Positions 17,747 through 34,079 of a DNA stretch of 40,894 bases are shown piece by piece; position 1 is the stretch's first letter, and each line of letters opens with the position of its first letter. The stretch covers positions 1 to 40,894 of the forward strand of contig DAOUVJ010000008.1 of assembly GCA_030667705.1 (NCBI GenBank), in the 5' to 3' direction. The stretch is from Promethearchaeota archaeon (lineage in GTDB: Archaea; Asgardarchaeota; Lokiarchaeia; Sigyniarchaeales; SOKP01). The notes under the pieces were generated by a model. The model was not told the origin of the DNA and searched no databases. It saw only the letters and a list, made by a program, of their open reading frames with translations. Both the position numbers and the translations under genes were made by a program.

Positions 17747-18727
17747 ATGAAAGCTGCAATTTTTGAAGATGTGAAGAAAATAATATATAGAGAAGACTAT
17801 CCCGATCCAATACCAGGAGACGATGATGTTATCCTAAAAGTCCATTATTGTGGAATCTGTGGAAGCGATATTACAAACTTTAAAATTAAAATGTATCAAG
17901 TACCACTGATAATGGGCCATGAATTCACTGGAGAAGTAGTAGAAATTGGAACTAACATTACTGATGTAAAAATTGGCGATAAAGCATGTGGAATTAACGT
18001 TAAATTAGATTTAAGTCAGAAGAAATTAGATGGAATGGGAATATTTAAGGATGGAGGATTTGCTGAGTTTGTTAAAGTTCCTAGAAAATACCTCTTTCAT
18101 ATTCCTAACAACGTGTCAACAAAAGAAGCTCTCATGGTTGAATCCTTTGCTAATGCAGCAAGAGGAGTTCGATTATCTAAAATTGACCAGAATGAAAAAA
18201 TTGTGATAATTGGAGGTGGGAATATTGGATTATGCTTTTTAAAATACATTTTAAAGGAAAAAAACCCCCAATATTTAGTTATAGTTGAACCACATGAGTA
18301 CTTAAGGAATATAGCAAAAAAGATGGGGGCAAGTGAGGCATTTCCCCCAAACAAATCAAAATTAAAAAAATATTTCAAGGATAATGGATCTCCAACATTC
18401 ATTTTTGATTGCGCAGGTAATGAAAAATCTATTTTGTTAGCAATTGATTTAGTTGAACGTGGGGGCACTATTTTACTAGAAGGTGTATATAAAGGTAGTG
18501 TTTCATTTCCAATGTTTCTCATTAATTCAAAAGAAGTAACAATCACAGGGGTCCTTGGACATGATTATGAGGATATAAATTTAGCTCTAAACTTTTTCTC
18601 TCAAAAAAAAGTAGATGCCAATGAACATATTACTCATATAATGCCATTAAATGAAATCCAAAATGCGTTTGAAAAATTCTTGGATCCAGGCGAAAGGAAA
18701 TTTGTAAAAATTGGAATAAAGATTTAA
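17747..18727 (+). CDS. Zinc-type medium-chain alcohol/polyol dehydrogenase
   Basis: MDR-superfamily NAD(P)-dependent dehydrogenase. The N-terminal GroES-like domain has the catalytic zinc ligands in YCGICGSDI (Cys) and MGHEFTGEV (His-Glu). The nucleotide-binding Rossmann motif is IIGGGNIGLCFLKYIL (about residue 150). At 326 aa it is slightly short: the usual structural-zinc lobe with four closely spaced cysteines is absent, the region reading DKACGINVKLDLSQKKLDGMGIF instead. That points to the sorbitol/threonine dehydrogenase-like branch with a reduced lobe. AAGGAATC precedes the ATG. Its 3' end overlaps the stop codon of the convergent small GTPase gene. The substrate cannot be told from sequence. 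Confidence 0.86.
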   Translation: MKAAIFEDVKKIIYREDYPDPIPGDDDVILKVHYCGICGSDITNFKIKMYQVPLIMGHEFTGEVVEIGTNITDVKIGDKACGINVKLDLSQKKLDGMGIFKDGGFAEFVKVPRKYLFHIPNNVSTKEALMVESFANAARGVRLSKIDQNEKIVIIGGGNIGLCFLKYILKEKNPQYLVIVEPHEYLRNIAKKMGASEAFPPNKSKLKKYFKDNGSPTFIFDCAGNEKSILLAIDLVERGGTILLEGVYKGSVSFPMFLINSKEVTITGVLGHDYEDINLALNFFSQKKVDANEHITHIMPLNEIQNAFEKFLDPGERKFVKIGIKI

Positions 18728-19242
18728 GCTTTCAATTTGTTTTTTACTATCTCATTCGCCAATACTTCAAATGATTTGTAAACATTAGTCCCATCTTTAG
18801 CCGAGGTATTGAAAATATAACTGCCGTTAATATCATTTCTAATAATTTCAATTTCTTCTTTTGTGATTTCATTAACTAAATCATTTTTATTTGCTATTAA
18901 GATAATAGGGGTATTTTTACAATATTTCATCAAATCGAGCTTCCAAAATTTAATAAGCTGTTCAAAGGTTTTTCTTCTTGTGAGATCAGCTACCATCATC
19001 ACACCATCAGCTCCATTATAATACAAATGGCGCATTTTTACCCATCGTTCTTGACCAGCTATATCCCATAATTGCATTTTAATTGCTTCTCCTGTTTTAA
19101 GTATCAATTTTTTAATAAAAATATTAGTACCAATTGTTATTCTATAATCTCTTGAGAATTTTTTAGATATGAATTGTTTAACTAAACTAGTCTTTCCCAC
19201 CCCAGGATCCCCTATAATTATGATTTTGATTTGATATGTCAT
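18724..19242 (-). CDS. Ras-superfamily small GTPase, Rab-like
   Basis: Complete 172-aa G domain: G1 GDPGVGKTSLVKQF, switch-I Thr in YRITIGTNIF, G3 WDIAGQERW, G4 NKNDL and G5 TSAK. The WDIAGQE sequence and the Thr in G2 put it with the Rab/Ras-like GTPases that are expanded in Asgard archaea. The sequence ends VKNKLKA, without a C-terminal cysteine for prenylation, so membrane binding would need another mechanism. Nothing nearby is an evident GAP, GEF, longin or roadblock protein. It is divergent from the HDAC-like gene and convergent with the dehydrogenase. Confidence 0.95.
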   Translation of the reverse strand: MTYQIKIIIIGDPGVGKTSLVKQFISKKFSRDYRITIGTNIFIKKLILKTGEAIKMQLWDIAGQERWVKMRHLYYNGADGVMMVADLTRRKTFEQLIKFWKLDLMKYCKNTPIILIANKNDLVNEITKEEIEIIRNDINGSYIFNTSAKDGTNVYKSFEVLANEIVKNKLKA

Positions 19243-19563: not shown

Positions 19564-20655
19564 ATGACCACAGGGATAATATACGATCCAGTATATCTTA
19601 GCCATAGAATAGGAAATCATGTCGAAAGTCATTTAAGATTAGTAACAATTATGGATTTTCTTAAACAGCAAAAATTATTACCCAATAACCCCAGTTTTAA
19701 AATGATAAGCCCAAGGAAAGCAACAATAGATCAGATCAAATATGTTCATACAGAGAGATTAATTAATGAAGTGAAAGAACTTTGTGAACTCAGTCAAAAA
19801 ACTGGAAGAATTCAACAACTTGATATGGATACCGCAGTATCTGCGAAGACGTATGAGGCTTCTTTATTTTCCGTAGGAGGAAATTTACAAGGTATAGATG
19901 AAATATTATCCGGTAGTATTAAAAATGGATTTGCCTTAGTACGTCCACCAGGGCATCATTCAAACAAGTATAGATGTGCTGGATTTTGCATTTTTAATAA
20001 TATTGCTATTGCTGCGGAGTATTTATTTAGAGAAAAAAACTTTAAAAGGGTAGCTATCATAGATTGGGATTGTCATCACGGAAATGGAACACAAGACATA
20101 TTCTATGGAGGATCGGAAAATGGAAATTTGGTTATGATAAATTCACATCAAGATCCTACTTATTTTTATCCTGGTTCAGGATTCTTCAATGAAATTGGTG
20201 AGGATGAAGGATTAGGAAAAATAATTAATTTTCCAATGCCTCCCAATTCTGCTGATGATGTTCTAATGAGATATTATGAAGAAATAGTTAATCCTCTTTT
20301 AAACGAATTCAAACCAGAATTTATTCTTATTTCAGCAGGTTTTGATACTCACTGGACAGATAGATTAACTAATATGGGATGGACTTATCAAGCACCAGCA
20401 ATATATTTAGATAAAATTAAGGAAATTGCCAATAAATATGCAAAAGATCGAATTTTGATTACTTTAGAAGGGGGCTACGAAGTAGACAAGCAAGCAATAG
20501 CGGTATATAATTGTTTACAGATATTAAATGATAATGATAATGATTTAATTGAGGAAAATACAAGAACTTCAGATGCAGAAATATTGAATTATGTGGATAA
20601 TTATCTAATCCCGAAATTGAAAAAGAAACTGAGTGATCATTGGAGTTGCTTTTAA
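19564..20655 (+). CDS. Class II histone deacetylase-like (HDAC/AcuC) hydrolase
   Basis: 363-aa arginase-fold zinc deacylase. The tandem active-site histidines are in RPPGHHSNKYRCAGFC, the zinc ligands in DWDCHHGNGTQDIFY (Asp, His) and SAGFDTHWTDRLTNMGWT (Asp), and the transition-state Tyr in LEGGYE. The family covers protein lysine deacetylases, acetylpolyamine amidohydrolases and acetoin-utilisation proteins. The loop pattern is closest to class II HDACs. Possible substrates in an archaeon include acetylated lysines of chromatin proteins such as Alba or histones, but no such gene is in the window. The polyproline/zinc-ribbon gene follows after 93 bp on the same strand. Confidence 0.9.
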   Translation: MTTGIIYDPVYLSHRIGNHVESHLRLVTIMDFLKQQKLLPNNPSFKMISPRKATIDQIKYVHTERLINEVKELCELSQKTGRIQQLDMDTAVSAKTYEASLFSVGGNLQGIDEILSGSIKNGFALVRPPGHHSNKYRCAGFCIFNNIAIAAEYLFREKNFKRVAIIDWDCHHGNGTQDIFYGGSENGNLVMINSHQDPTYFYPGSGFFNEIGEDEGLGKIINFPMPPNSADDVLMRYYEEIVNPLLNEFKPEFILISAGFDTHWTDRLTNMGWTYQAPAIYLDKIKEIANKYAKDRILITLEGGYEVDKQAIAVYNCLQILNDNDNDLIEENTRTSDAEILNYVDNYLIPKLKKKLSDHWSCF

Positions 20656-20748: not shown

Positions 20749-21693
20749 ATGTCTAATGAATATGAGAGAGACGATGAGGAAGAATATAAACCACTAAAAC
20801 CCCCATCTATGCCACCCCCTACAATACCTCCTCCCTCAATGCCTCCACCTACAATGCCTCCGCCTACAATGCCTCCGCCTACAATGCCTCCACCCTCAAT
20901 GCATCCGCCCTCGATACCTCCTCCTCCGACATCAACCCTAACCCCCACACCACCTGCACCAACTCCTCCTCCCGTCTACCCTACAGAACCTGTTGCTCCT
21001 ATGTATGAACCAGAATACACCGGACCGTCTCAATATGAATATGAGACGGTTGTATCTCAAGTTCAACAAAAGGAAAATACAATTTATCAATTACAAGAGC
21101 AAATTAAAGATGTAAATGCTCAATTTGCTAATCTAAATGCTCAACTTCTTGAAAAGGAAAATATCATTAATCAATTATCTAATCAAATGAATGGTCTCCA
21201 AGGGTCTATGGAAAGTTATCAATCTCAAATAACCCAATTAACTAATGAAAAAGCTCAATTACAAACTGTTATTCCTCAATTACAAGGACAGTTGCAAGGC
21301 GTGCAACAAGAGAATATGACACTCCAACAACAAATTGACCCCCTTCAAGCACAAATCACTAAACTTCAAGAAGAATTATTATACAAAGATAGACGTATTC
21401 AGGAATTAAAAGAGCCAAAAGCAGTAATGCCCTCTAGCTTAGCACAAGGTATTACGTCCCAAACCGCTAATATAGGGGGGCCTCCTTCCTTTGGAGCACC
21501 TACGGGAACCACAGCAACACCTGCTCCGACTGCGAATATAGGTCTTGGATCTGGAAGAAGAATATGCCCAAATTGCGGAGCTAGTGGTTTTGCTATAAAA
21601 GAAGTTGAAGATAAAACAAGAATCATTAGTTACATTCCTAAACCTCAATATGCGAAGAAATCAATCTGCTCGAAGTGTGGTTTTGAGTTTTAA
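20749..21693 (+). CDS. Polyproline - coiled-coil - zinc-ribbon protein
   Basis: I do not know a named family for the whole protein. Residues 1-18 are acidic. Residues about 19-62 consist of repeats of the form (S/T)(M/I)PPP, followed by a further Pro/Thr-rich stretch to about residue 90. Residues about 100-220 are a Gln-rich coiled coil (QEQIKDVNAQFANLNAQL...). After a Gly/Ala/Thr/Pro linker comes a C-terminal zinc ribbon, ICPNCGASGFAI...SICSKCGFEF. The architecture recalls eukaryotic polyproline adaptors (the FH1 region of formins, Ena/VASP) that recruit profilin, SH3 or EVH1 partners; that parallel is inference. AAGGTT precedes the ATG. A T9 run follows the stop, so it probably ends a transcription unit. 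Confidence 0.8.
   Translation: MSNEYERDDEEEYKPLKPPSMPPPTIPPPSMPPPTMPPPTMPPPTMPPPSMHPPSIPPPPTSTLTPTPPAPTPPPVYPTEPVAPMYEPEYTGPSQYEYETVVSQVQQKENTIYQLQEQIKDVNAQFANLNAQLLEKENIINQLSNQMNGLQGSMESYQSQITQLTNEKAQLQTVIPQLQGQLQGVQQENMTLQQQIDPLQAQITKLQEELLYKDRRIQELKEPKAVMPSSLAQGITSQTANIGGPPSFGAPTGTTATPAPTANIGLGSGRRICPNCGASGFAIKEVEDKTRIISYIPKPQYAKKSICSKCGFEF
20806..20925. repeat. Eight 15-bp tandem repeats encoding (S/T)xPPP
   Basis: Consecutive units are in frame, for example ACAATGCCTCCGCCT (Thr-Met-Pro-Pro-Pro), with two adjacent identical copies at 20851-20880 and diverged copies either side. The near-identity of the central copies at the DNA level suggests recent expansion by slippage or unequal exchange. 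The reverse-strand Gly-rich ORF over it is an artefact of the repeat. Confidence 0.9.
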
Positions 21694-21921: not shown

Positions 21922-24900
21922 ATGTCAGAATTTCGTGAAGATTTATTAGTTACAAGTATAGATAAAAAAAGAGTTGTTAAGATTATTGCAGTTGCAGCTT
22001 TATTAATTACCGCGTTTGCTTTCTCAATTATATTATCTAGTCTTATTTTTGATACCCAAAGACCCTATCCAAGTGACGAACTTGCAGGAGCCGAAGAAGA
22101 AACAGGCATTACACTGACTTTACCACCATTTCCCTATAATTTATCCGATTTTCAAGATATGAATTTGACTCAAGACCAATTAGACAGCCTGCTCGATGCG
22201 TTACAGGACATGTTTGATGGAGATATCGATGATTTGGACCTTGGTAATTTTTCTCAAAGTCAATTAGCTTTAATGGCTTCAGAAATTGAAGTATTTAGAG
22301 TTTTTAATTATGCTGATTTTAATAGCATGTCTAATAAATTATGGAAATATGAATGTTTTGATGATTATACTGGCGATGGATGGCAATCAACAGCCGCATC
22401 GCAAATTTACAATTTCTACACTTATGAGGATTATGGAACTTATCATTGGGATAAAGAAATTTTAAGAATTAAAATACCCATGACACCTTCAATTGGTATT
22501 AATTCGATGGTTATCCCATCATTATTCCCTACACCATTTATAATGGAAGGAAGCATTTGGGATAATCCAGCTGGAAATATTGATTTCATGAATCCCCCAG
22601 TTTTATATAAAGATGATTTTAATTCGTCGATATTGGATGTTTATTTTAATAGTGATGTCGACGTTAATATGAGTTATAACTCATTTGGATTAAATTTACC
22701 AACTAATGATCAAATTAATTCTTCTGCGATACATGCTAGTTACACTCCTTTACCGATTCAAAATAAATTTTTACAGTTGCCGCCAACAATCCAATTATAT
22801 TTAAGTAACAACCCATTTGTTTATACTCATTATTTAGCATTAAATAGCACCATTTTACCTAACGATAATGCCTTTATGGTAGCAAATAAAATTAGGAATT
22901 ATTTACAATTTTATTTTTCATTACCCTCTGATCCGGATACTTATACTTCCGCCCCTCCTGGAAGAGATGCAGTTGATTATTTCTGTGAAACACAAGAAGG
23001 AATGTGGGTTGAATTTGCTTCCGCGTTTGTTATTTTTGCCAGAATTTTTGGAGTCTCATCCCGTTTTGTTGATGGATTTAATAGTATAGGAATTCAGGAG
23101 ATATGGGATAATCAAGATTTTCAAAATGCGTTTGCTGTTAAATATAAAAATATCTATAATTGGGCAGAGATCTTTGTACCCACCGATATCAGCGGAGCTG
23201 GAGAATGGGTTCAAATGGACGTACTTCTTGATAGTTATGGAGTAGGAGGAAATCCTTGGAGTGATCCTTGGAGTTTAACTAACTATAGCTTAATTGTTAA
23301 CACTAATTTCACTAGTGGACATAGAAATAATCAATATGCTAATATTACTGCAACTTTAACTTTGAACAGTATCCCTGTTTCTAATAGTACTATAACTTTC
23401 ACAGACCATCCAGATTTTAGAATTCCATCAAATATAATTGGTCAATATACTACAGACATCAATGGTCAAGCATCTATTATAATCTCTATAGATGATGCCC
23501 AAACGGCAGGAATTCACGTGATTTCTGCGATATATAATGCACAAACTATGAATGCTACCAACTATATAGTATACGGAGATGTTCAACTAAATTTAGTGGA
23601 TGTAAATCCACAAGAAGTGAATATCTCCATAAGTACCCAAGCCAATATTCAAGGTTATATGATTGATCCTCTCACCAATCAAAGAGTTGTTGGTGCAACC
23701 GTTGAATTCTTATTACTTAACAAGGGTACAAATCTTAGAGTAGGTGCACCTCCTTTTGACATTACTCAATTAGATACCGATAGTAATGGAGATTTTAATG
23801 CGATGATAAATGTTGATCCTTCTGTATTAGTAGGGCAATATGATATAAGAGTCGATTTCAACGGTAGTTTTTACGGTTTTCCTCTTGCTATGGGTATTAT
23901 GAATGGTTCTAGCAACATAATGGACTTTAATGTTACTAAAGGATTACTCAAAAAAGTATGGTTTTTTATTGATGATGTTCCTTCAAGCAATGCTACAGCA
24001 CCTGCAATAACGAGGTACTCTTCAATAAAACTTAAGGCTTATGTACTAGATGAAAATAACTATCCGCTCGCTAATCAGAATGTAGAATTCTATGATTATA
24101 GGACGGGTAGCTTTATTACTAGCAATACAACAAATACTCAAGGATACGCAACTCATAATTATGATGATGTAGGAACTCAAGCTATATCTGGTCCAAATTT
24201 ACTTTATGCAAAAATAGGAAATGTTTACAATTATTCTTATTATGTTCTAAATGATGCTCCTACAATTCATATATTTTCAGGACCAACACCACTCGTAATT
24301 AATCGTACAGGTGGAGGCGCAACCTCATTTAATGTTGTTGGTCAAGTCACGGATACATTAGATGATTCAAAACCAGTAGGATACTCCACTATAACATTAA
24401 AATTATTACGTGGAGGAACAGATTATTCTTCATTTTTGGTAGCTTATGATAGCTATCCTTACCAAACATGGAGTTCAGGGATATTTGACCTTAATTTCGG
24501 AGTTGCATTCGATACACCTACAGGTAATTATACTTTAAGGATGGATTTTAATGGAAGTATCAATTTACTGAATTATCCATATCCCTACCTCTTTAACTTA
24601 CCCTTACTTTTAAGTAACTCAACAACGTTAGATTATGAACTACAAGTATCTGCCCCCGATACGCTGAAATTTGATTTCTGGATAGATGGGTTTACCTCAT
24701 ATGATTATAATCAACCATCAATTAATAGAAATGGCCAAATGAACTTGTCAACTTATCTCGAATGGGGTTCTAGCCCTATAGGAGATGGAGAGATGGTCGA
24801 ATTTTATGATGAAACTCAAGATCTATCAATTGGATTTGCTCCAACAACCAATGGAAGGGCTTCTTTAATTTATTCGACAGTGTTTTCCACAATTGCAGGT

Positions 24901-26391
24901 CCTCACTTGATTTCAGCAAGATGGGGATCAAATTATAATTACTCATATTTCATTCTTAATGATCAAATAAATGTCACATTATTATCAGGACCTACACCAC
25001 GAGAAATATATAGGAGTGGTCCAACTCAACGTACATTCAATCTTCAAGGTTCTATTATTGATGGATCGAATGGATTTCCTATTAAATTTCCTGAAATTCA
25101 GGTTGTTTTATTAGATGGAACAATGACTGATGTCTCGTATTATTTATCTTCTAATATATTTCTATTAGATGATACTGGTGTATTTGATCTCACAATTTCT
25201 GTAAGTAGTGGAACTCCTGCTACAAATTATACATTAGGTGTAGTATTTAATGGTATTTTCATATATTCATTACCAAATAATCAATTCAATGAACACAATT
25301 TCTACATGTTCACTTCTAATTTCACCGATTTCAAAAGTGGATTTTATGAATTGAAAGTAATTGATCCATATAATATCAGCATTTCGTTTTCAATAGATGG
25401 AAATCCTACTCAATCATTTTATGATGATTTTAATCTTCCTGAAAGATATACACAGGGAGAACCAATTAATTTTTCTGTTTACATTACTCAAAGTGGAACT
25501 CCAGTAACTTCTGGGACTGTCGTTCTTAGGGATGTCTATACTGGATCACAAATAGGATCTTATGATTATCAGTCAGGTGATAATGGATACTACAAATTTA
25601 TTAATATTGATACAGCTTTATGGCATGCCGGATTACATAGGATAGAAGTACAATGGTCAATATTTCCAACTTTTAATTCAACTTATATAATCATAAATGA
25701 AACTATTACTATATCCGCTTTTTCTACCTTGCATAGCATTCAAAGAGATTTTGATATACTCAGTGTGTTCGGTTCTGTTCAAGATGGAACAACCAATCTC
25801 AGAGGTTTAAATATCAAAATATTATTATTAGATTCATCATATAATGATGTTTCTGGATACCTTAATTTAGCGGGGAGTCAAACAATTAATGTTTATGATG
25901 GTAGTTTTCAATTTAATGTGAATTTTATCTCACTCAACTGTCCTCAAGGTCAATATTATTTTAGGATTGATTTTAATGGAAGCATAAACGAAGCTGGAAT
26001 CTCTTTAAATAATTACATGATTAATACAAGTAGTATGCTGATTCCAGTGAATATAACTGCAGGAACTTACATAGCTGGTAATTATGACTCTCTAGCTGTT
26101 AAGGATCAATTTTATGAAGATGATACTTTATATGCATATGGTTATTTATTATGGGATAATGGCACTGCCATATCTGGTAAAGAAGTAACAATCACAATAA
26201 AAGATAATTTAGGATTTACCATTACATCTGCAACGGGTTTTACTGATGGAAGCGGGTGGTTTAATATCTCGATCTTAATTGGAAATTGGCCAAATGATGC
26301 AGAAGTTTGGGCGAGTTTTGTTCCTGAAGATAATTATATTGACCCATATTATTATTATATTGATTATACAGAAATAGAGTTATTTAGATAA
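21922..26391 (+). CDS. Giant surface protein: inactive transglutaminase-like domain plus four Ig-like repeats
   Basis: A short cytoplasmic N-terminus is followed by one membrane anchor (about residues 18-42) and an external body with many N-glycosylation sequons. Residues about 330-440 have the TgpA-type transglutaminase-like fold (DAVDYFCETQEGMWVEFASAFVIF, FVDGF, YNWAEIF, WVQMD). The catalytic Cys position is Trp362 and the His position is Tyr412; only Asp433 of the triad remains, so it is probably a non-catalytic binding domain. From about residue 460 the protein is beta-rich. A unit of about 230-240 aa recurs four times, marked by DFNGS-type motifs near residues 644, 874, 1107 and 1349, and, except after the last, SGPTP-like strand starts. 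GAGGA precedes the ATG. There is no C-terminal membrane segment. It is the first gene of the MoxR/DUF58 locus. Confidence 0.85.
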   Translation: MSEFREDLLVTSIDKKRVVKIIAVAALLITAFAFSIILSSLIFDTQRPYPSDELAGAEEETGITLTLPPFPYNLSDFQDMNLTQDQLDSLLDALQDMFDGDIDDLDLGNFSQSQLALMASEIEVFRVFNYADFNSMSNKLWKYECFDDYTGDGWQSTAASQIYNFYTYEDYGTYHWDKEILRIKIPMTPSIGINSMVIPSLFPTPFIMEGSIWDNPAGNIDFMNPPVLYKDDFNSSILDVYFNSDVDVNMSYNSFGLNLPTNDQINSSAIHASYTPLPIQNKFLQLPPTIQLYLSNNPFVYTHYLALNSTILPNDNAFMVANKIRNYLQFYFSLPSDPDTYTSAPPGRDAVDYFCETQEGMWVEFASAFVIFARIFGVSSRFVDGFNSIGIQEIWDNQDFQNAFAVKYKNIYNWAEIFVPTDISGAGEWVQMDVLLDSYGVGGNPWSDPWSLTNYSLIVNTNFTSGHRNNQYANITATLTLNSIPVSNSTITFTDHPDFRIPSNIIGQYTTDINGQASIIISIDDAQTAGIHVISAIYNAQTMNATNYIVYGDVQLNLVDVNPQEVNISISTQANIQGYMIDPLTNQRVVGATVEFLLLNKGTNLRVGAPPFDITQLDTDSNGDFNAMINVDPSVLVGQYDIRVDFNGSFYGFPLAMGIMNGSSNIMDFNVTKGLLKKVWFFIDDVPSSNATAPAITRYSSIKLKAYVLDENNYPLANQNVEFYDYRTGSFITSNTTNTQGYATHNYDDVGTQAISGPNLLYAKIGNVYNYSYYVLNDAPTIHIFSGPTPLVINRTGGGATSFNVVGQVTDTLDDSKPVGYSTITLKLLRGGTDYSSFLVAYDSYPYQTWSSGIFDLNFGVAFDTPTGNYTLRMDFNGSINLLNYPYPYLFNLPLLLSNSTTLDYELQVSAPDTLKFDFWIDGFTSYDYNQPSINRNGQMNLSTYLEWGSSPIGDGEMVEFYDETQDLSIGFAPTTNGRASLIYSTVFSTIAGPHLISARWGSNYNYSYFILNDQINVTLLSGPTPREIYRSGPTQRTFNLQGSIIDGSNGFPIKFPEIQVVLLDGTMTDVSYYLSSNIFLLDDTGVFDLTISVSSGTPATNYTLGVVFNGIFIYSLPNNQFNEHNFYMFTSNFTDFKSGFYELKVIDPYNISISFSIDGNPTQSFYDDFNLPERYTQGEPINFSVYITQSGTPVTSGTVVLRDVYTGSQIGSYDYQSGDNGYYKFINIDTALWHAGLHRIEVQWSIFPTFNSTYIIINETITISAFSTLHSIQRDFDILSVFGSVQDGTTNLRGLNIKILLLDSSYNDVSGYLNLAGSQTINVYDGSFQFNVNFISLNCPQGQYYFRIDFNGSINEAGISLNNYMINTSSMLIPVNITAGTYIAGNYDSLAVKDQFYEDDTLYAYGYLLWDNGTAISGKEVTITIKDNLGFTITSATGFTDGSGWFNISILIGNWPNDAEVWASFVPEDNYIDPYYYYIDYTEIELFR

Positions 26392-26405: not shown

Positions 26406-27947
26406 ATGAAAATTTTAAGAAAATCATTCATTAGCATGACATTCCTAATCTGTATTTCATTGTTATCATTTGTGTATATTAGTCAAAATAGTACTTCTCA
26501 ATCAGAAGATAAAGAAAACCTAAATCTCTCAGGTACATGGGCAACATTAGACTTAAATACAAGTATTTTCAATGGAACTCGAATTCAAACTAATAATATT
26601 ATTAGTGTTCAAGGGAGGCTTTGGAATAGAATAACAAGTGTAGGTAAGGATGGGTATACTGTAGTAATGGAAGTTGATGGTATCCTTCATTCTGGGTTTA
26701 ACGATATCACTTCAGGTGGTGGTTATTTCCAAATTGATTATACTATTGATAATTCTCTTAATGTGTTTAGTAGTCATCGATTAGAAGTTAAGGTTACTAA
26801 TCCTGTACCTCCTGGTGACGTAGAATACAGAACTCATTATGATATTGACGTAAGTACAAATTCTTATTTTGAAACATATGATCCTACTGATCCTAAATTA
26901 CTTGGTGAATTATTTTCTTTTGAAGGTTATTTAAGATATGAGAATGGTACCGGTATTGCATTCCAAAACTTTGATTATTATTGGTACCAAGGGACTACTT
27001 TACAATCTTGGGGTAGTGGATTCACTGATAATAATGGTCAAATTCAAAATTCCATCCCTATACCTGATATAGGGATTGATGATTTATCATTAAAATTAAA
27101 TTATACATTCAATCCATTTATTAGTGATTCAAACTCATCTATTTATAATACTAAATTATTTTCAAATATCTCTTGTATTTGGAACCTTCCTACTACAATA
27201 TTAGAAAATAGTACTTTTCGAATTCGAGGACAAATAATTTCTATTAGTGATCCTAATGTTTTAATAAGTAATAAATACATCAGGATTTTATATAATGGTT
27301 CTCAGATTAATGCTGTCACAACTGACGCCAATGGACGTTTTGATATTACTTATCCGTTAGGAGTAGGTATAGGATTAACTTACTTAGAAATAGAAGTAGA
27401 TAATTTTCTTGGAAAGGATATATCAACTCAATATTTTATAACAATTAAAGCTGCACCTCCACCTACAACTCCCCCACCAGCTACTGCCCCTCCATTTGCA
27501 TTATTTTTATCGATTTTTATCCCCATTATTGTTGGAATAGTAGTTGGACTATCAATTTATGGTTATTATCATTATAAAAAACAAGATAAAGAATCTCGAG
27601 TAGTTAATTTACCTCTTGAAAACAGGATTAAAAATTTATTGATATTAAAAGATACTGGAAGATTAGAAGAATCTCTTTCATATTTATTTAATGCGATATA
27701 TTTGGATTTAATCCAAGCAAAATTTGGGAAAACTCGCAACGATAATGAAACAATTCGGGACTTTGCTATAATCTCTGTTAAAGATTTAAATTTATCTCCT
27801 ACTAACATCTACCCATTCATTCAAAAAGTAGAAGAAATTATATATGCAAAACCGTACCGTATTTCAGATAATGATTTTTATAATACTATAGAATTATTTT
27901 CTCCAATTTATCATGAACTTACTGGATATAATTTCGTTTTAAATTAA
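26406..27947 (+). CDS. Single-pass surface protein with cytoplasmic DUF4129-like helical module
   Basis: 513 aa: an N-terminal signal peptide or anchor (FISMTFLICISLLSFVYI), an external beta-rich part (about 40-345) resembling the repeats of the preceding protein (FTDNNGQIQNSIPIPD; TTDANGRFDITYPLG), a Pro/Thr stalk (PPPTTPPPATAPP), a transmembrane helix (about 362-388) and a cytoplasmic helical domain of about 115 aa. That last domain (LEESLSYLFNAIYLDLIQ...ETIRDFAI...YPFIQKVEEIIYA) matches the pattern of the C-terminal DUF4129 segment that accompanies bacterial transglutaminase/MoxR loci. It begins 14 bp after the giant protein with GGTGAT as ribosome-binding site, so the two are cotranscribed. 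It probably links the external layer to cytoplasmic partners. Confidence 0.75.
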   Translation: MKILRKSFISMTFLICISLLSFVYISQNSTSQSEDKENLNLSGTWATLDLNTSIFNGTRIQTNNIISVQGRLWNRITSVGKDGYTVVMEVDGILHSGFNDITSGGGYFQIDYTIDNSLNVFSSHRLEVKVTNPVPPGDVEYRTHYDIDVSTNSYFETYDPTDPKLLGELFSFEGYLRYENGTGIAFQNFDYYWYQGTTLQSWGSGFTDNNGQIQNSIPIPDIGIDDLSLKLNYTFNPFISDSNSSIYNTKLFSNISCIWNLPTTILENSTFRIRGQIISISDPNVLISNKYIRILYNGSQINAVTTDANGRFDITYPLGVGIGLTYLEIEVDNFLGKDISTQYFITIKAAPPPTTPPPATAPPFALFLSIFIPIIVGIVVGLSIYGYYHYKKQDKESRVVNLPLENRIKNLLILKDTGRLEESLSYLFNAIYLDLIQAKFGKTRNDNETIRDFAIISVKDLNLSPTNIYPFIQKVEEIIYAKPYRISDNDFYNTIELFSPIYHELTGYNFVLN

Positions 27948-27976: not shown

Positions 27977-28378
27977 TTGAATAAACAAAATAAAGGAAAA
28001 GAAAATGGCAAAAAAGAAAAAAAAATGATTGAACCAGAAGTCAACATTCGACAAAAATTTGATAACGTCAAAGTACTAGTTCAATCTCATCGGGCAAAAG
28101 AAGCTATTGCTTACATATATTTGGTTTATAATGATTTGATTACTTTGAAATTTAAAAAACCACGTTTAGCGTTTCAAACCATACGAGAATATGCAATAAC
28201 GTGTGTCAATGAATTAGATCAAAAACCAGAATCAGTGTATCCCTTCATAAAAAAAATCGAAGATATTATTTATGGTGGAATTGAACCCACGAGTAAAGAA
28301 ATAAATTTTACCGTGCAATTATTTTCCACTTTATACAATGAAGTTACTGGAAAATCTCTGCCTGCAATGAGTTTTTAA
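27977..28378 (+). CDS. Soluble stand-alone DUF4129-like helical module
   Basis: 133 aa, cytoplasmic, and nearly all of it is the same module found at the C-terminus of the preceding protein: AKEAIAYIYLVYNDLITLKF...QTIREYAI...ESVYPFIKKIEDIIYGG...FTVQLFSTLYNEVTG. The match includes the spacing and the T(I)RE/D-A and YPFI(Q/K)K(V/I)E motifs, so I take the pair as a duplication. The track start is TTG at 27977 with no clear Shine-Dalgarno. ATG 28025 (MIEPEVN), downstream of a GGAAAAG stretch, is an equally good start and would remove a Lys-rich tail. It lies 29 bp after its neighbour. Confidence 0.7.
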   Translation: MNKQNKGKENGKKEKKMIEPEVNIRQKFDNVKVLVQSHRAKEAIAYIYLVYNDLITLKFKKPRLAFQTIREYAITCVNELDQKPESVYPFIKKIEDIIYGGIEPTSKEINFTVQLFSTLYNEVTGKSLPAMSF

Positions 28379-28434: not shown

Positions 28435-30180
28435 ATGTCAAGTATTGGAAAAGTTTCTGAGAAGAACGTGAATTTATCAAAGGGGATTTTATATTCATTT
28501 TTCGTGATTTTTCTTCTATTTTATGGGGTCTTTCTTACAGATTTTGTTGAGGTTTATCAAAAGAATAATCCCGGTTTAGAACTTCCAATTTTCGTAACTT
28601 ACATTCCATTAGTATGCTACGTTGCATCAGTATTTGTTGGATTAGGATTGTTTATTTTCATTAGAAAAACTACAGCTCAAAAATCACGAGAGATACAATC
28701 AAGGAAAAAAACAAAAACAGGGTCAATCTACAAGAATGCATTATTTTTAATCATCTTTATATTCGTTTTTATCCCATTATTTGGTTCAATATTTGACCAA
28801 GGAGTGAATGATCAAAACTTTTCAATCTATAATGATGATTGGAATGGATCATCATCATTTCGAAATACGATAGAAGCACAAGGATATGATATAATGTCTA
28901 TTCAATCAAGTTTGAGTGCAACAGAAAGATTGGATAAGTCAATTTTGTTAGTCCTTCTTGGACCAAATCAGTATTACAATCCTATTTTCGAAATTCCTTA
29001 CTTTATCAATTTTTTCGGTAATGATACAACAAATTCAATACTAATTTGTCATGATCATGGAAGTACGAGTACTTTGTTATGGGAGATATTCATTGCAGGA
29101 GCTCTTGATCCTGATATAGCTGGGGCCATTCCAGTAACTATTTTCCCAAATGGTATTTTAAGAGATAATGAATCATATGATACAAGAACAGATTTTCCCG
29201 TGATAAAATCATTTACAACCCATCCTATTGCAAATGGAATTAATGAAGTAATTTTATCTCAAGCTACTACCGTTGTTGGAGGCCCTTTCTTTGATTTCTT
29301 TGGATGGGAATTAGTAGGATCTTCAAGTGAGTATGGTTATGTAGATAAAAATGATGATCACATGTATAAATTGGAAGATGATAATATAGATATTAGCTTA
29401 ATTGCTGCATCGATTCCTGGATTTCCGACACAATGGACACAATGGCCACTAGGAGGCTATCCTCAAGGGGTCTTTATGGCAAAAGATACTGGTAATGGTC
29501 GTGTATTCGTTTCTTCTGATGCTAGTTTATTTAATAATGAACTGATTGAATTACGTGATAATCGACAATTTGGGATTAATATAATCGATTGGCTAACCTA
29601 TGGGGCTTCTTCTCCAAATGAAGATTGGATAGTCGTGTTTGATGAAGCACATATCAGACCTGAATATTCAAGAGACTTAACTTCAGCAGGAATATATGGA
29701 TTTATCATTCAATATGTTATTCAACTATCTACAAATCCAATAACAGCATGGATATATCCACTATTAGCGATCTATACATTAAGAAAATATTTGCCAAAAA
29801 AAGACGAGAAAAAACAAAAGAAAAAAGTAAAGGAACAAGACGACAAAGAAGAACAAGAACGATTTAGAACATCCTCATTTTTTGCTGAAAAAATCCAGTG
29901 GTATCGAGAGAAAGGAAGATATGGGAAGGCGTTAACGCTTCTATATAGGAGACTTGAAAGAAAATTAAATAATTTGTTGAGAGGGAAAAAAATAACAACT
30001 AAAAGTGTGTTAGATATGGCTATTGCCAAGGAACAAAATCTAACAAAACTAAAAATTAGAAGAATAGCTCGATTTATGGATCGAATAATTGCCATAAAAG
30101 AAGGAAAAAATAAGATTAAGAATGAAGAAGATTTTGAAAATCTATTCTTTGAAATGGAATGGGTTATGAACAATATTTAA
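28435..30180 (+). CDS. DUF4350-like membrane protein with C-terminal helical module
   Basis: 581 aa. Three N-terminal hydrophobic segments (about 17-40, 58-80, 100-120) are followed by a globular part (about 130-420) with a class I amidotransferase-like fold pattern: YNDDWNGSSSFRNTIEAQGYDI, LLVLLGPNQYYNP, ILICHDHGSTS, HPIANGI and GNGRVFVSSDASLFNN. This is the layout of DUF4350 proteins. DEAHIRPEY precedes a further membrane segment (about 425-455). The cytoplasmic tail (EKIQWYREKGRYGKALTLLYRRLERKL...) resembles, more distantly, the helical module of the two preceding genes. DUF4350 proteins commonly sit beside MoxR and DUF58 genes. GGGATGA precedes the ATG. Confidence 0.75.
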   Translation: MSSIGKVSEKNVNLSKGILYSFFVIFLLFYGVFLTDFVEVYQKNNPGLELPIFVTYIPLVCYVASVFVGLGLFIFIRKTTAQKSREIQSRKKTKTGSIYKNALFLIIFIFVFIPLFGSIFDQGVNDQNFSIYNDDWNGSSSFRNTIEAQGYDIMSIQSSLSATERLDKSILLVLLGPNQYYNPIFEIPYFINFFGNDTTNSILICHDHGSTSTLLWEIFIAGALDPDIAGAIPVTIFPNGILRDNESYDTRTDFPVIKSFTTHPIANGINEVILSQATTVVGGPFFDFFGWELVGSSSEYGYVDKNDDHMYKLEDDNIDISLIAASIPGFPTQWTQWPLGGYPQGVFMAKDTGNGRVFVSSDASLFNNELIELRDNRQFGINIIDWLTYGASSPNEDWIVVFDEAHIRPEYSRDLTSAGIYGFIIQYVIQLSTNPITAWIYPLLAIYTLRKYLPKKDEKKQKKKVKEQDDKEEQERFRTSSFFAEKIQWYREKGRYGKALTLLYRRLERKLNNLLRGKKITTKSVLDMAIAKEQNLTKLKIRRIARFMDRIIAIKEGKNKIKNEEDFENLFFEMEWVMNNI

Positions 30181-30248: not shown

Positions 30249-31229
30249 ATGGAATCTCCAAACAAAGCAAAGTATTATGAAAGAGAAGAATTGGATGTAA
30301 GTTCTATTAGATCAATAGCACAAGAGGTTTTAAGTGAAGTAAGCCGCGTGATTGTCGGTAATGGAGAAATTCTTCAGCAGCTTTTCATAGCTCTCCTCGT
30401 TAACGGTCACGTCCTTCTTGAAGGCGTTCCTGGCTTAGGTAAAACCGTTATGGCTAAAATATTTGCTAAGACATTAGGAATATCTTTCAAGCGTGTTCAA
30501 TTTACCCCTGATTTATTACCTTCTGATATAACAGGTACAAAAATATTTGATCAGAATGAGGGTGCGTTTGTACTTCAGAAAGGTCCGATTTTTGCCAATG
30601 TTGTGTTAGCTGATGAAATAAATAGAAGTGCCCCAAAAACTCAAGCAGCACTTCTAGAAGCTATGGCTGAACGACAAGTAACTATTGAAGGTCAAACACT
30701 TGAATTAGTGAAACCATTTATTGTCATTGCAACAGAAAACCCCGTAGAAATGGAAGGTACATATCCCTTACCAGAAGCGCAAGTTGATCGTTTCTTATTT
30801 AAGTTGTGGTTAGATTATCCTGAAGTTGATGAAGAGGTAGAAATCATGAGGAGACAAATCTCAGGAGATATGCCTTCGGTAGATGTCATCACTAGTTCTG
30901 AAGAACTATTAGCAGCTCAAAGAATTATGAATATGGTCTATATAGACGAAAGAATACTTAAATACATTAGGGACATAATAATAAAAACACGAAATCATCC
31001 ACAAATCGCATTAGGGTGTGGACCTCGAGCCTCGCTTACAATAATGAAAACATCGAAAGCAAGAGCTGCAATCCTTGGACGTACTTATGTCACACCAGAT
31101 GATGTTAGAGCTCTCATCATACCAGCCCTTAATCATCGAATATTGTTAAAAGCAGAAAGTGAACTTGAAGGCTTGGATTCACTATCTGTGCTAAGATCAA
31201 TAGTGGAAGACATTCCAGTTCCAATTTAA
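30249..31229 (+). CDS. MoxR family AAA+ ATPase
   Basis: 326-aa AAA+ protein. Walker A is GVPGLGKT (residues 59-66), Walker B VVLADEINRSAPKTQAALLEAMAERQVT (about 118-145), sensor-1 IVIATENPVEMEGTYPLPEAQVDRF, and the lid contains GPRASLTIMKTSKARAAILGR. MoxR ATPases act as chaperones for complexes containing vWA/MIDAS proteins, and the DUF58 protein encoded next is such a protein. GAAGTGAA precedes the ATG. A T9 run follows the stop codon, so moxR and the DUF58 gene may be transcribed partly separately. Confidence 0.95.
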   Translation: MESPNKAKYYEREELDVSSIRSIAQEVLSEVSRVIVGNGEILQQLFIALLVNGHVLLEGVPGLGKTVMAKIFAKTLGISFKRVQFTPDLLPSDITGTKIFDQNEGAFVLQKGPIFANVVLADEINRSAPKTQAALLEAMAERQVTIEGQTLELVKPFIVIATENPVEMEGTYPLPEAQVDRFLFKLWLDYPEVDEEVEIMRRQISGDMPSVDVITSSEELLAAQRIMNMVYIDERILKYIRDIIIKTRNHPQIALGCGPRASLTIMKTSKARAAILGRTYVTPDDVRALIIPALNHRILLKAESELEGLDSLSVLRSIVEDIPVPI

Positions 31230-31310: not shown

Positions 31311-32639
31311 ATGCTTGGTGGAAATGGTCGAACATTGATTATATTTGCAGTTTTCTTCCTAACTGCAGGATTTGCATTTGTAAATTATTTTTTTATTTTC
31401 TTTGCAATTCTCCTGTTATTTAGTACGATTATTAGCTTACCGCTTTTTTATTGGCAAATGAACATAGAAGAATTACGAGTCCATAGAGAACTTGAAAAAG
31501 AGAAGGTATTTAAAGATGATTTTGTCCATATTAAGGTTGTAATTAAAAACACAGGAAAAAATAGCTTTGACCTTTTAGAAATTAGAGATTATTATAATCC
31601 TCAACTTTTTCGATTAGTCCTTGGTGAAAATTTCATATCTACACGTATAGGTTCCAAAGGATTAGTAAAATTCTCTTATGTTCTTGAACCCAAAATACGA
31701 GGAGAATATCCTATAGGACCCCTTTCGGTAACCGTTAAGGATCGATTAGGGTTTAATTCCGTTGAAAGAATAATCCCTAATAGTGTTTCAGATATTTTAG
31801 TATATCCTCCATATGAAGATATAAAAAGGATCGAAATTCTCGGGTCCAAACGATCTCTTCAGTTGAATTATGGTTTACAAAGATCTAAACAAAAAGGTCT
31901 TGGATCAGAATTTTATGGAATGAGAAGATATGTTTTCGGGGATCAATTTAGATTAATTGACTGGAAGGCAAGTGCACGGACTCAAAAATTAATAGTAAGG
32001 GAATTTGAAAGTGAACGAGACGTAACTGTTATGATTTTAGTGGATTCATCTAATAGCATGGCCGGGGGTGCGATTGAGAACACAAAATTCGAATATGCAA
32101 TTCGAGCATGTATGTTACTAACCAAAGTTGCTCTCACACGAAGAGATAGCGTAGGAATATTTTCATATTCAGATAAGAAAAATCTACAATTCTTAAAACC
32201 AAGAGGCGGAGATGATCATTTTTATCAAGTCCTCGATTTTGTTGCTAGGGTAAAACCTCAAGGAAAGAGTAGAATTGTTGAAGCCATAGATTACTTCGTT
32301 AGACGGTTTCAAAAAAGGAGTTTAATATTTCTAATATCTGATTTAGAAGGAAATGTGAAAGAAATAAAACAAGCAGTGAGAAAACTTGTTACATTTAATC
32401 ATTCAATTATTGTTATTAATCCTTTTAGTCCATGGTTCGAAATTCATGAAATTGATTTATCCTCTACTGATAAAGCATTAGCTGAAGCAATTAGTGAGGA
32501 AATGATGGAACATATACTACTCCTTAGACGAGAATTTCGCAATTTAGGGATTAATCTCATAACAACGGGACCAGATGAAATGATGGCAAATGTACTAAAA
32601 ACTTATATGGAAGCAAAGAAAAAAGGGAGTGCGTATTAA
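31311..32639 (+). CDS. DUF58 family vWA-like protein, membrane-anchored
   Basis: 442 aa. Two hydrophobic segments near the N-terminus (about 8-48) are followed by a beta-rich region and then the DUF58 signature FYGMRRYVFGDQFRLIDWKASART (about 200-225). The von Willebrand A-like domain has a MIDAS DSSNSM (Asp245) and the strands DSVGIFSYSD and RSLIFLISDLEG. It is the usual genomic and functional partner of MoxR ATPases, and probably recruits MoxR to the membrane. GGAGAT precedes the ATG. The next gene starts 3 bp after its stop, so the two are surely cotranscribed. Confidence 0.92.
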   Translation: MLGGNGRTLIIFAVFFLTAGFAFVNYFFIFFAILLLFSTIISLPLFYWQMNIEELRVHRELEKEKVFKDDFVHIKVVIKNTGKNSFDLLEIRDYYNPQLFRLVLGENFISTRIGSKGLVKFSYVLEPKIRGEYPIGPLSVTVKDRLGFNSVERIIPNSVSDILVYPPYEDIKRIEILGSKRSLQLNYGLQRSKQKGLGSEFYGMRRYVFGDQFRLIDWKASARTQKLIVREFESERDVTVMILVDSSNSMAGGAIENTKFEYAIRACMLLTKVALTRRDSVGIFSYSDKKNLQFLKPRGGDDHFYQVLDFVARVKPQGKSRIVEAIDYFVRRFQKRSLIFLISDLEGNVKEIKQAVRKLVTFNHSIIVINPFSPWFEIHEIDLSSTDKALAEAISEEMMEHILLLRREFRNLGINLITTGPDEMMANVLKTYMEAKKKGSAY

Positions 32640-32642
32640 AAA

Positions 32643-34079
32643 ATGGCGCGATATTATTTATTAGGATTAAAAATAATTAAGATTTTCATATATGTTTTGA
32701 TTTTAGTAATATTCCTCTCCGTTTTTCATTTTGACGAGGTTTTAACGACTGATACCGGAGAATTAGTTATAGTTGCCTTTTTTGAAGGAATAAGAAATAT
32801 AATAACCTATGCCTTCTTTGGACTTGTGTATGTTTTGGCATTAGGAAGTATTCAGATATCTTCCTTTATCTTTACTCCAAATCCACAATTTATGTTTAAC
32901 TTTCTTGATATATTCATGCGTAATTATTTTGGATTATGGTTTAATTTTCCTAATGGTACTGTACCTGCCTTAACAGAAATCCCAGATCTCATATGGGCAG
33001 AAATCTCTGTATTTACTGGAGATTTCTATTTATTTGCTTTCCAAATTCTATTCATTGTATCAATAATTTATTCAATTAGAGCTTTTTTCCAAACAAATCC
33101 GAAACACGATATGCTTGTAGTTGGTTCTCTAATACTCATGATTGTAGTGCCTCTTATAATATTTGGATTTAACAATATGTTAGATCTTTTTCACATTAGC
33201 GACCCATATCTCAGTTCGCTTCATGATCCCTTGGATCCCGCGTTTTCAGTGATTCCTATAGATAATTTTTTTCAATTCTTAGCTAGCCCTGTTATATCAC
33301 TAGCTATAATGTCATATATTTATTTAGAATTAGCGTTTCAAATTAATTATATTGATACGGTTTCCAAACCATCCTTGGAAAGACGAAATAGGCTCGAGTT
33401 TCAGCTAGAAATCCTTCAAAGTGAATCCCATTTCGTTGTAGCAAATATTGACAAAATAAAAGATGAAGCTAAGGTACGCAAAGAAGAAATTGACAAAGAA
33501 GGAAAAACTAATATTAATAAATTTCTCTTAAAAATGGAAGAAAGATTTTCTTACGTAAAAGAAATGATTGAAAAAAAGAAATTGGAAGAAGAAGAAAAGA
33601 GATTAATTACTGCTGCTTCAAAAACAAGAAGATTAGGACGATACATAGATAGACTATTCAAGGAAGATACAGAGGCTCGAGATACACTTACAGCAAGAAC
33701 GTCTGCCCCTAAAACGCAGAGCTTAGCCATTTCAACATTAATCAACTTTTTCTCACGTATTATAATTTTAATTTTAATAAGTTTCATTGTAATACAACCA
33801 CATTGGTTTGCTGAAAATGTTTTCAGCTTACCACCCGCAATTACAGAAAGTGTGGCAATGTACTCTCCAGAAGTAATTTTAATTCTCTTATTACCCATAG
33901 TATCTTTATTTCCCGTTATATCAAAAATCGTCTCTTATATTAAACATCGAAATTTAATCATAAGTCTACAACAAGAAGGTAGAATAAAAGAAATTTTAGC
34001 TTCTGTAGGAGATTACGTTAGAAAAGAAGAAATCACTGAAGAAGTCACAATAGAAGAATCTGTAGCTGAATCATCCTAA
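32643..34079 (+). CDS. Multi-pass membrane protein with central coiled coil
   Basis: 478 aa, family not recognised. Several hydrophobic helices occupy residues 1 to about 235 (for example IKIFIYVLILVIFLSVF and FAFQILFIVSIIYSI). A charged coiled coil of about 100 residues follows (SLERRNRLEFQLEILQSESH...KKKLEEEEKRLI), then two to three more hydrophobic segments (about 360-425) and an acidic tail (EEITEEVTIEESVAESS). Its Shine-Dalgarno lies within the end of the DUF58 gene (GGGAGTG), implying translational coupling. It is the last gene of the locus and converges with cofD five bases on. From position it is a likely membrane platform for the MoxR/DUF58 pair; no catalytic motif is seen. Confidence 0.7.
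   Translation: MARYYLLGLKIIKIFIYVLILVIFLSVFHFDEVLTTDTGELVIVAFFEGIRNIITYAFFGLVYVLALGSIQISSFIFTPNPQFMFNFLDIFMRNYFGLWFNFPNGTVPALTEIPDLIWAEISVFTGDFYLFAFQILFIVSIIYSIRAFFQTNPKHDMLVVGSLILMIVVPLIIFGFNNMLDLFHISDPYLSSLHDPLDPAFSVIPIDNFFQFLASPVISLAIMSYIYLELAFQINYIDTVSKPSLERRNRLEFQLEILQSESHFVVANIDKIKDEAKVRKEEIDKEGKTNINKFLLKMEERFSYVKEMIEKKKLEEEEKRLITAASKTRRLGRYIDRLFKEDTEARDTLTARTSAPKTQSLAISTLINFFSRIIILILISFIVIQPHWFAENVFSLPPAITESVAMYSPEVILILLLPIVSLFPVISKIVSYIKHRNLIISLQQEGRIKEILASVGDYVRKEEITEEVTIEESVAESS

Follow-up and report, generated by a model that had tools for sequence, protein, structure and literature searches.

The closest described relative of the protein analyzed here is TgpA (PA2873) of Pseudomonas aeruginosa (structures 6g49 and 6g4h), its best PDB match by sequence. 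The likeness is a periplasmic or extracellular transglutaminase (TG) fold, and it extends over the N-terminal region. TgpA has a Cys-His-Asp (C-H-D) triad, Ca-independent transglutaminase activity and a multi-transmembrane DUF3488 N-terminus, and its gene is co-transcribed with two neighbors and is essential (PMC3507681). The Lokiarchaeota protein described below differs from TgpA in that it lacks the triad and DUF3488, and has approximately 1000 additional amino acids of Ig-like domains after the TG domain.

Several other systems share parts of this arrangement. Haloarchaea (Halorubrum, Halorussus, and Halobaculum) have clusters in which a TG gene is followed by genes for a small protein and a DUF58 protein. 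On the haloarchaeal plasmids the TG gene lies beside DUF58, and MoxR is present in one of the three stretches (Halorubrum). These clusters differ from the one in Lokiarchaeota in that their C-H-D is intact. In NorQ/NorD and RavA/ViaA a MoxR AAA+ protein is likewise paired with a vWA partner, but the vWA proteins and the targets are different and there is no TG partner. Two eukaryotic proteins, EPB42 (band 4.2) and FBXO21, are intracellular, belong to other subfamilies and contexts, and have no MoxR-DUF58 cluster. Both are inactive, with the TG fold kept (PMC10318531). We found no description of a dead TgpA in MoxR-DUF58-type clusters, of Asgard transglutaminases, or of inactive archaeal TG domains in the literature searched, to which subscription papers largely did not belong.

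We analyzed a stretch of 40,894 nucleotides (the window) from a Promethearchaeota archaeon. The gene at 21922..26391 (+ strand) encodes a TgpA-like pseudo-transglutaminase of 1489 aa, a predicted surface protein, as assigned from the open reading frame, matches to PF01841, Big_1 and (weakly) MG2, and structure models. The protein has an N-terminal hydrophobic segment, a beta domain and TG core (aa ~170-470), and then approximately 9-10 Ig-like beta domains. The Transglut_core domain (aa 341-433; 22942..23220, + strand) matched PF01841 with 34.4 bits, compared to a Pfam gathering cut-off of 23; the same family was hit by each of the 38 sequences in the orthologue alignment. Beyond the TG core there were sub-threshold matches to Big_1 (Ig-like) and MG2. 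The 1489-aa protein had no Pfam match to the multi-transmembrane N-terminal region DUF3488 (PF11992); there is only the single hydrophobic segment.

The TgpA-like fold proposed in the initial annotation was recovered in the structure model. The AlphaFold2 model of aa 25-480, made with the 38-sequence alignment, had a mean pLDDT of 85.7, with most of the TG core between 92 and 98. Foldseek gave the TgpA periplasmic domain from P. aeruginosa as its first-ranked match (6g49; E 6.6e-12, TM 0.65 by target length), followed by a putative cysteine protease (3isr). TgpA was also the top PDB match of the family sequence profile (E 0.011), with its catalytic Cys in the column of Trp362. The remaining 1024 aa were modeled (mean pLDDT 85.0, pTM 0.45) as a chain of approximately 9-10 beta-sandwich domains, a number counted from the strand list. 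The top PDB matches of this part were alpha-2-macroglobulins and other multi-domain chains, and given TM-scores of about 0.1 we read the modeled domains as probable generic Ig-like chains. An alpha-2-macroglobulin global fold was considered for the C-terminal part and rejected: the Foldseek E-values were low, but the TM-scores were 0.09-0.15 with an rmsd above 30 Å, and the MG2 match was below the cut-off.

The TG domain has no usable Cys-His-Asp triad. The relevant motifs are CETQEGMWVEFASAF, starting at aa 355, YNWAEIF at aa 412, and EWVQMD at aa 428. Column alignment placed Trp362 (codon 23005..23007) in the column of the catalytic Cys, Tyr412 (23155..23157) in that of the catalytic His, and Asp433 (23218..23220), all on the + strand, as the retained third residue. 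The position of Trp362 was reproduced against P. aeruginosa TgpA, in which RSGFC aligned to QEGMW. In the secondary structure of the model, a 14-residue helix begins with Trp362, at the place of the nucleophile in transglutaminases; Tyr412 is in a later strand, and Asp433 is just past the next strand. The initial annotation had named these three residues, correctly numbered, and had inferred the loss of the triad that the W-Y-D columns confirm; its start position was one codon early.

The loss is common to the whole family. We compared 46 domains from 45 genomes belonging to the protein's own family in Lokiarchaeota (f1), and none of them had Cys or His in the respective columns. The Cys column was always aromatic (Trp in 31, Tyr in 8, and Phe in 7), the His column was Tyr in 46/46, and the Asp column was Asp in 45 and Glu in one. 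The replacement is conserved, with Tyr412 fixed and Trp362 itself not, and orthologues with a canonical triad, which would have made the change a local one, were absent from the family. Tyr412, Trp414, Glu416, and Asp433 were invariant in the 38-member alignment, and these four and Asn410 rank with the best-conserved positions in a family whose members are 36-69% identical. At least six changes among Trp, Tyr, and Phe occurred within f1 and none to Cys. Codons for Cys are one base away from those for Trp, Tyr, and Phe.

With an aromatic residue in place of the nucleophile and Tyr in place of the His, the domain could not form the usual thioester. As predicted from sequence, the domain has neither a nucleophile nor a general base at the canonical positions, which rules out the standard thioester mechanism, and it is expected to lack conventional transglutaminase and protease activity. 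Absence of activity is unproven by sequence, because migration of the active site is known in papain-like folds (PMC10318531).

The pseudo-transglutaminase gene heads a cluster in which the downstream genes are on the same (+) strand and separated by gaps of approximately 4-80 bases. The next gene (26406..27947) encodes a 513-aa membrane protein with an Ig/carboxypeptidase-regulatory-like ectodomain, one transmembrane segment predicted by sequence (~366-391), and a C-terminal domain of ~110 aa. It is followed by a gene for a soluble 133-aa paralogue of that C-terminal domain (27977..28378; hhalign probability 99.7%), and then by genes for a 581-aa DUF4350 membrane protein (28435..30180; PF14258, 33.6 bits with a cut-off of 30.4), a MoxR-type AAA+ ATPase (30249..31229; PF07726, 216 bits), and a DUF58 protein with a vWA domain (31311..32639; PF01882, 120.9 bits). 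MoxR and DUF58 are thus clustered with the TG gene, and their motifs are intact (Walker A GVPGLGKT and Walker B VVLADE in MoxR; the MIDAS-type DSSNS in the vWA domain). The last gene (32643..34079), a conserved neighbor, encodes a 478-aa membrane protein with a charged stretch that is predicted to be cytosolic. No Pfam family matched this protein, the C-terminal domain of the 513-aa protein, or the 133-aa protein. DUF4129, which would be expected in partner genes from bacterial TgpA, was not found there by Pfam. A scan for promoters and terminators gave nothing above shuffles.

The order of these seven genes is kept in the Lokiarchaeota loci and partly in other lineages. DUF4350-MoxR-DUF58 stay with the TG gene in families f7, f8, f9, f10, f12, f15, f17, and f18. 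There was no MoxR near the TG gene in the single loci examined from f22, f26, and f28, which may represent another branch; the f27 contig was too short. At L116/L094 (CP070831.1), the TG gene and the next two genes were present, with no match to DUF4350-MoxR-DUF58 within the flank.

The domain was present in 84 of the 117 related genomes searched. When 228 genomes of the phylum were searched with a profile, 201 gave a match; the weaker matches can be other transglutaminase-like proteins. The three triad columns were read from 132 domains aligned to a single profile; this census includes part of the weaker matches, and most of the genomes are draft assemblies. The Cys was missing in 123 of the 132 domains, replaced by Pro, Ser, Gly, Ala, or an aromatic residue depending on the clade. 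All 33 domains of f8 had Pro at this column, without His or Asp. Elsewhere the column was Gly (f15), Ala (f28), or Pro (most of f2 and f4). Only eight domains had the full C-H-D: four in f17, three first domains of f10 proteins, and one copy labeled f4. Ser-His-Asp was found in most of f7 and in f6, f9, f12, f16, f18, f26, and f27 (for example L059, L060, and L069), and it is possible, judging from these columns, that the latter seven lineages, with Ser and a retained His and Asp, have a Ser-His-Asp site instead of a dead one. As a control, 10/10 TgpA-type proteins from haloarchaea and bacteria read C-H-D or C-H-E with the same profile. An alignment artefact was rejected on the basis of this control and of L001, another transglutaminase-like protein of the genome, which read C-H-D.

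Four f10 chains (L052, L054, L207, and L208) have tandem TG domains, the first C-H-D (C-Y-D in one) and the second always P-H-D, that is, by sequence, a putative enzyme-pseudoenzyme pair. The f4-labeled copy (L055, from genome G075) is the sole C-H-D member of its family and nests within f17 in the tree; it may come from a misbinned contig or a transfer.

We built a maximum-likelihood tree without the triad columns. The family f1 was monophyletic in this tree (support 100/99). Without assuming a direction, the tree requires a minimum of three changes between Cys and non-Cys, and a hand count on the drawn topology gave approximately five losses if Cys was never regained. With several deep forks open, the safe minimum is two losses. 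What is new is the clade-specific loss throughout the phylum, with the fold and the cluster retained. We suggest tentatively that in Asgard archaea the TgpA-like partner of MoxR-DUF58 may have lost its nucleophile several times and each time been kept in a non-catalytic form, and that its ancestral job in these clusters could have been at least partly binding or scaffolding, with catalysis dispensable.

We think it likely that the catalytically dead TgpA-like ectodomain, with its Ig-like chain, is the surface binding or scaffold part of a MoxR-DUF58 system. The dead chemistry is well supported; we infer the binding role, the anchoring and location of the protein, and the coupling to MoxR-DUF58. 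The initial annotation had likewise proposed a binding role on the cell surface, but had overlooked both the MoxR-DUF58 cluster and the extent of the loss across the phylum. The TG domain would have become a stable pseudoenzyme, the TgpA fold being kept while the nucleophile changed to an aromatic residue and the His to an invariant Tyr. The N-terminal membrane segment would hold the protein outside the cell, with the Ig-like chain projecting. The conserved pair of replacements and the retained Asp suggest that the cleft is filled and specific, and that it either holds a partner or stabilizes the domain; as a surface made of the aromatic residue, Tyr, and Asp, it could bind proteins or peptides or act as a scaffold. 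The single-pass partner, the DUF4350 protein, and the last membrane protein of the cluster would couple the ectodomain to the cytosolic MoxR AAA+/vWA pair, which would remodel or assemble the complex. NorQ/NorD is a MoxR-vWA pair that remodels a membrane partner (PMC13036017). Because such pairs, including RavA/ViaA, act on membrane partners, we propose that the protein is probably the outer component of a membrane complex on which MoxR-DUF58 acts.

The domain could instead be active with displaced residues, for example using Cys355, seven residues upstream of Trp362. Active-site migration is known in the superfamily (PMC10318531) and Cys355 is present in 40 of the 46 f1 domains, but it is Leu or Ser in the other six, the model places it in the helix before that of Trp362, and relatives with an intact C-H-D have Leu or another residue there. 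Cys370 is also not invariant (32/46), and His occurs at any one core position in at most nine of the 46. Because of this scarcity of His and the six substitutions of Cys355, there is no conserved alternative Cys-His pair in the core of the 46 domains, and hence none of the different triad that the initial annotation had allowed for; we regard a displaced site as very improbable. The lack of such a pair, combined with pairwise dN/dS values of 0.04-0.44 for close pairs, indicates a maintained pseudoenzyme. That the gene is decaying or locally mutated, or that the assembly is in error, is scarcely credible. The assembly is a draft of 228 contigs, but the 1489-aa frame is full length and the same state is found in the 45 genomes of f1. 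The purifying dN/dS, the invariant residues, and the intact reading frames exclude decay, and the agreement of 46/46 same-family domains led us to reject local mutation or misassembly.

Two other explanations accept a dead domain and give it a different role. The TG fold could have a purely structural role, as the block from which the Ig-like stalk rises, with an old cleft that binds nothing and replacements that pack the core. Beta domains in a chain make up the rest of the protein, and the residues that fill the site in each clade, which are small, hydrophobic, or aromatic (Pro, Gly, Ala, and Trp/Tyr/Phe), suit packing as well as binding. However, packing accounts only in part for the high conservation of Tyr412, Asp433, Asn410, Trp414, and Glu416 in or beside the old site, and we consider this explanation unlikely. 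It is quite improbable that the protein is a regulatory pseudoenzyme that competes with, or controls, another transglutaminase-like protein of the cell that is active. The genome does encode three other transglutaminase-like proteins with Cys, one of which (L001) looks secreted and has C-H-D, and the f10 proteins combine an intact TG domain with a dead one in a single polypeptide. But the genes for the three lie on different contigs from this one, and the proteins fall into other subfamilies, with no link found beyond the shared genome, and there was no active TG copy elsewhere in the cluster.

In a whole phylum, most lineages have a dead enzyme part while the fold, the cluster, and purifying selection persist, indicating that a non-enzymatic role can carry the system. 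The intact and dead orthologues are a natural set for testing such a role. The protein also extends the inventory of the archaea most closely related to eukaryotes by a conserved, probably cell-surface component.

A gene of the histone-deacetylase family (19564-20655) adjoins the TG gene, on the same strand in Lokiarchaeota and divergent in f17 (L063, L064, and L233), which has the intact triad. Upstream of the TG gene, 20749-21693 encodes a conserved Lokiarchaeota protein with a proline-rich N-terminus, a coiled coil, and a zinc-ribbon-like C-terminal end (CxxC...CxxC). A Ras-family small GTPase gene (18724-19242, - strand) lies beside the cluster and is kept in most Lokiarchaeota loci.
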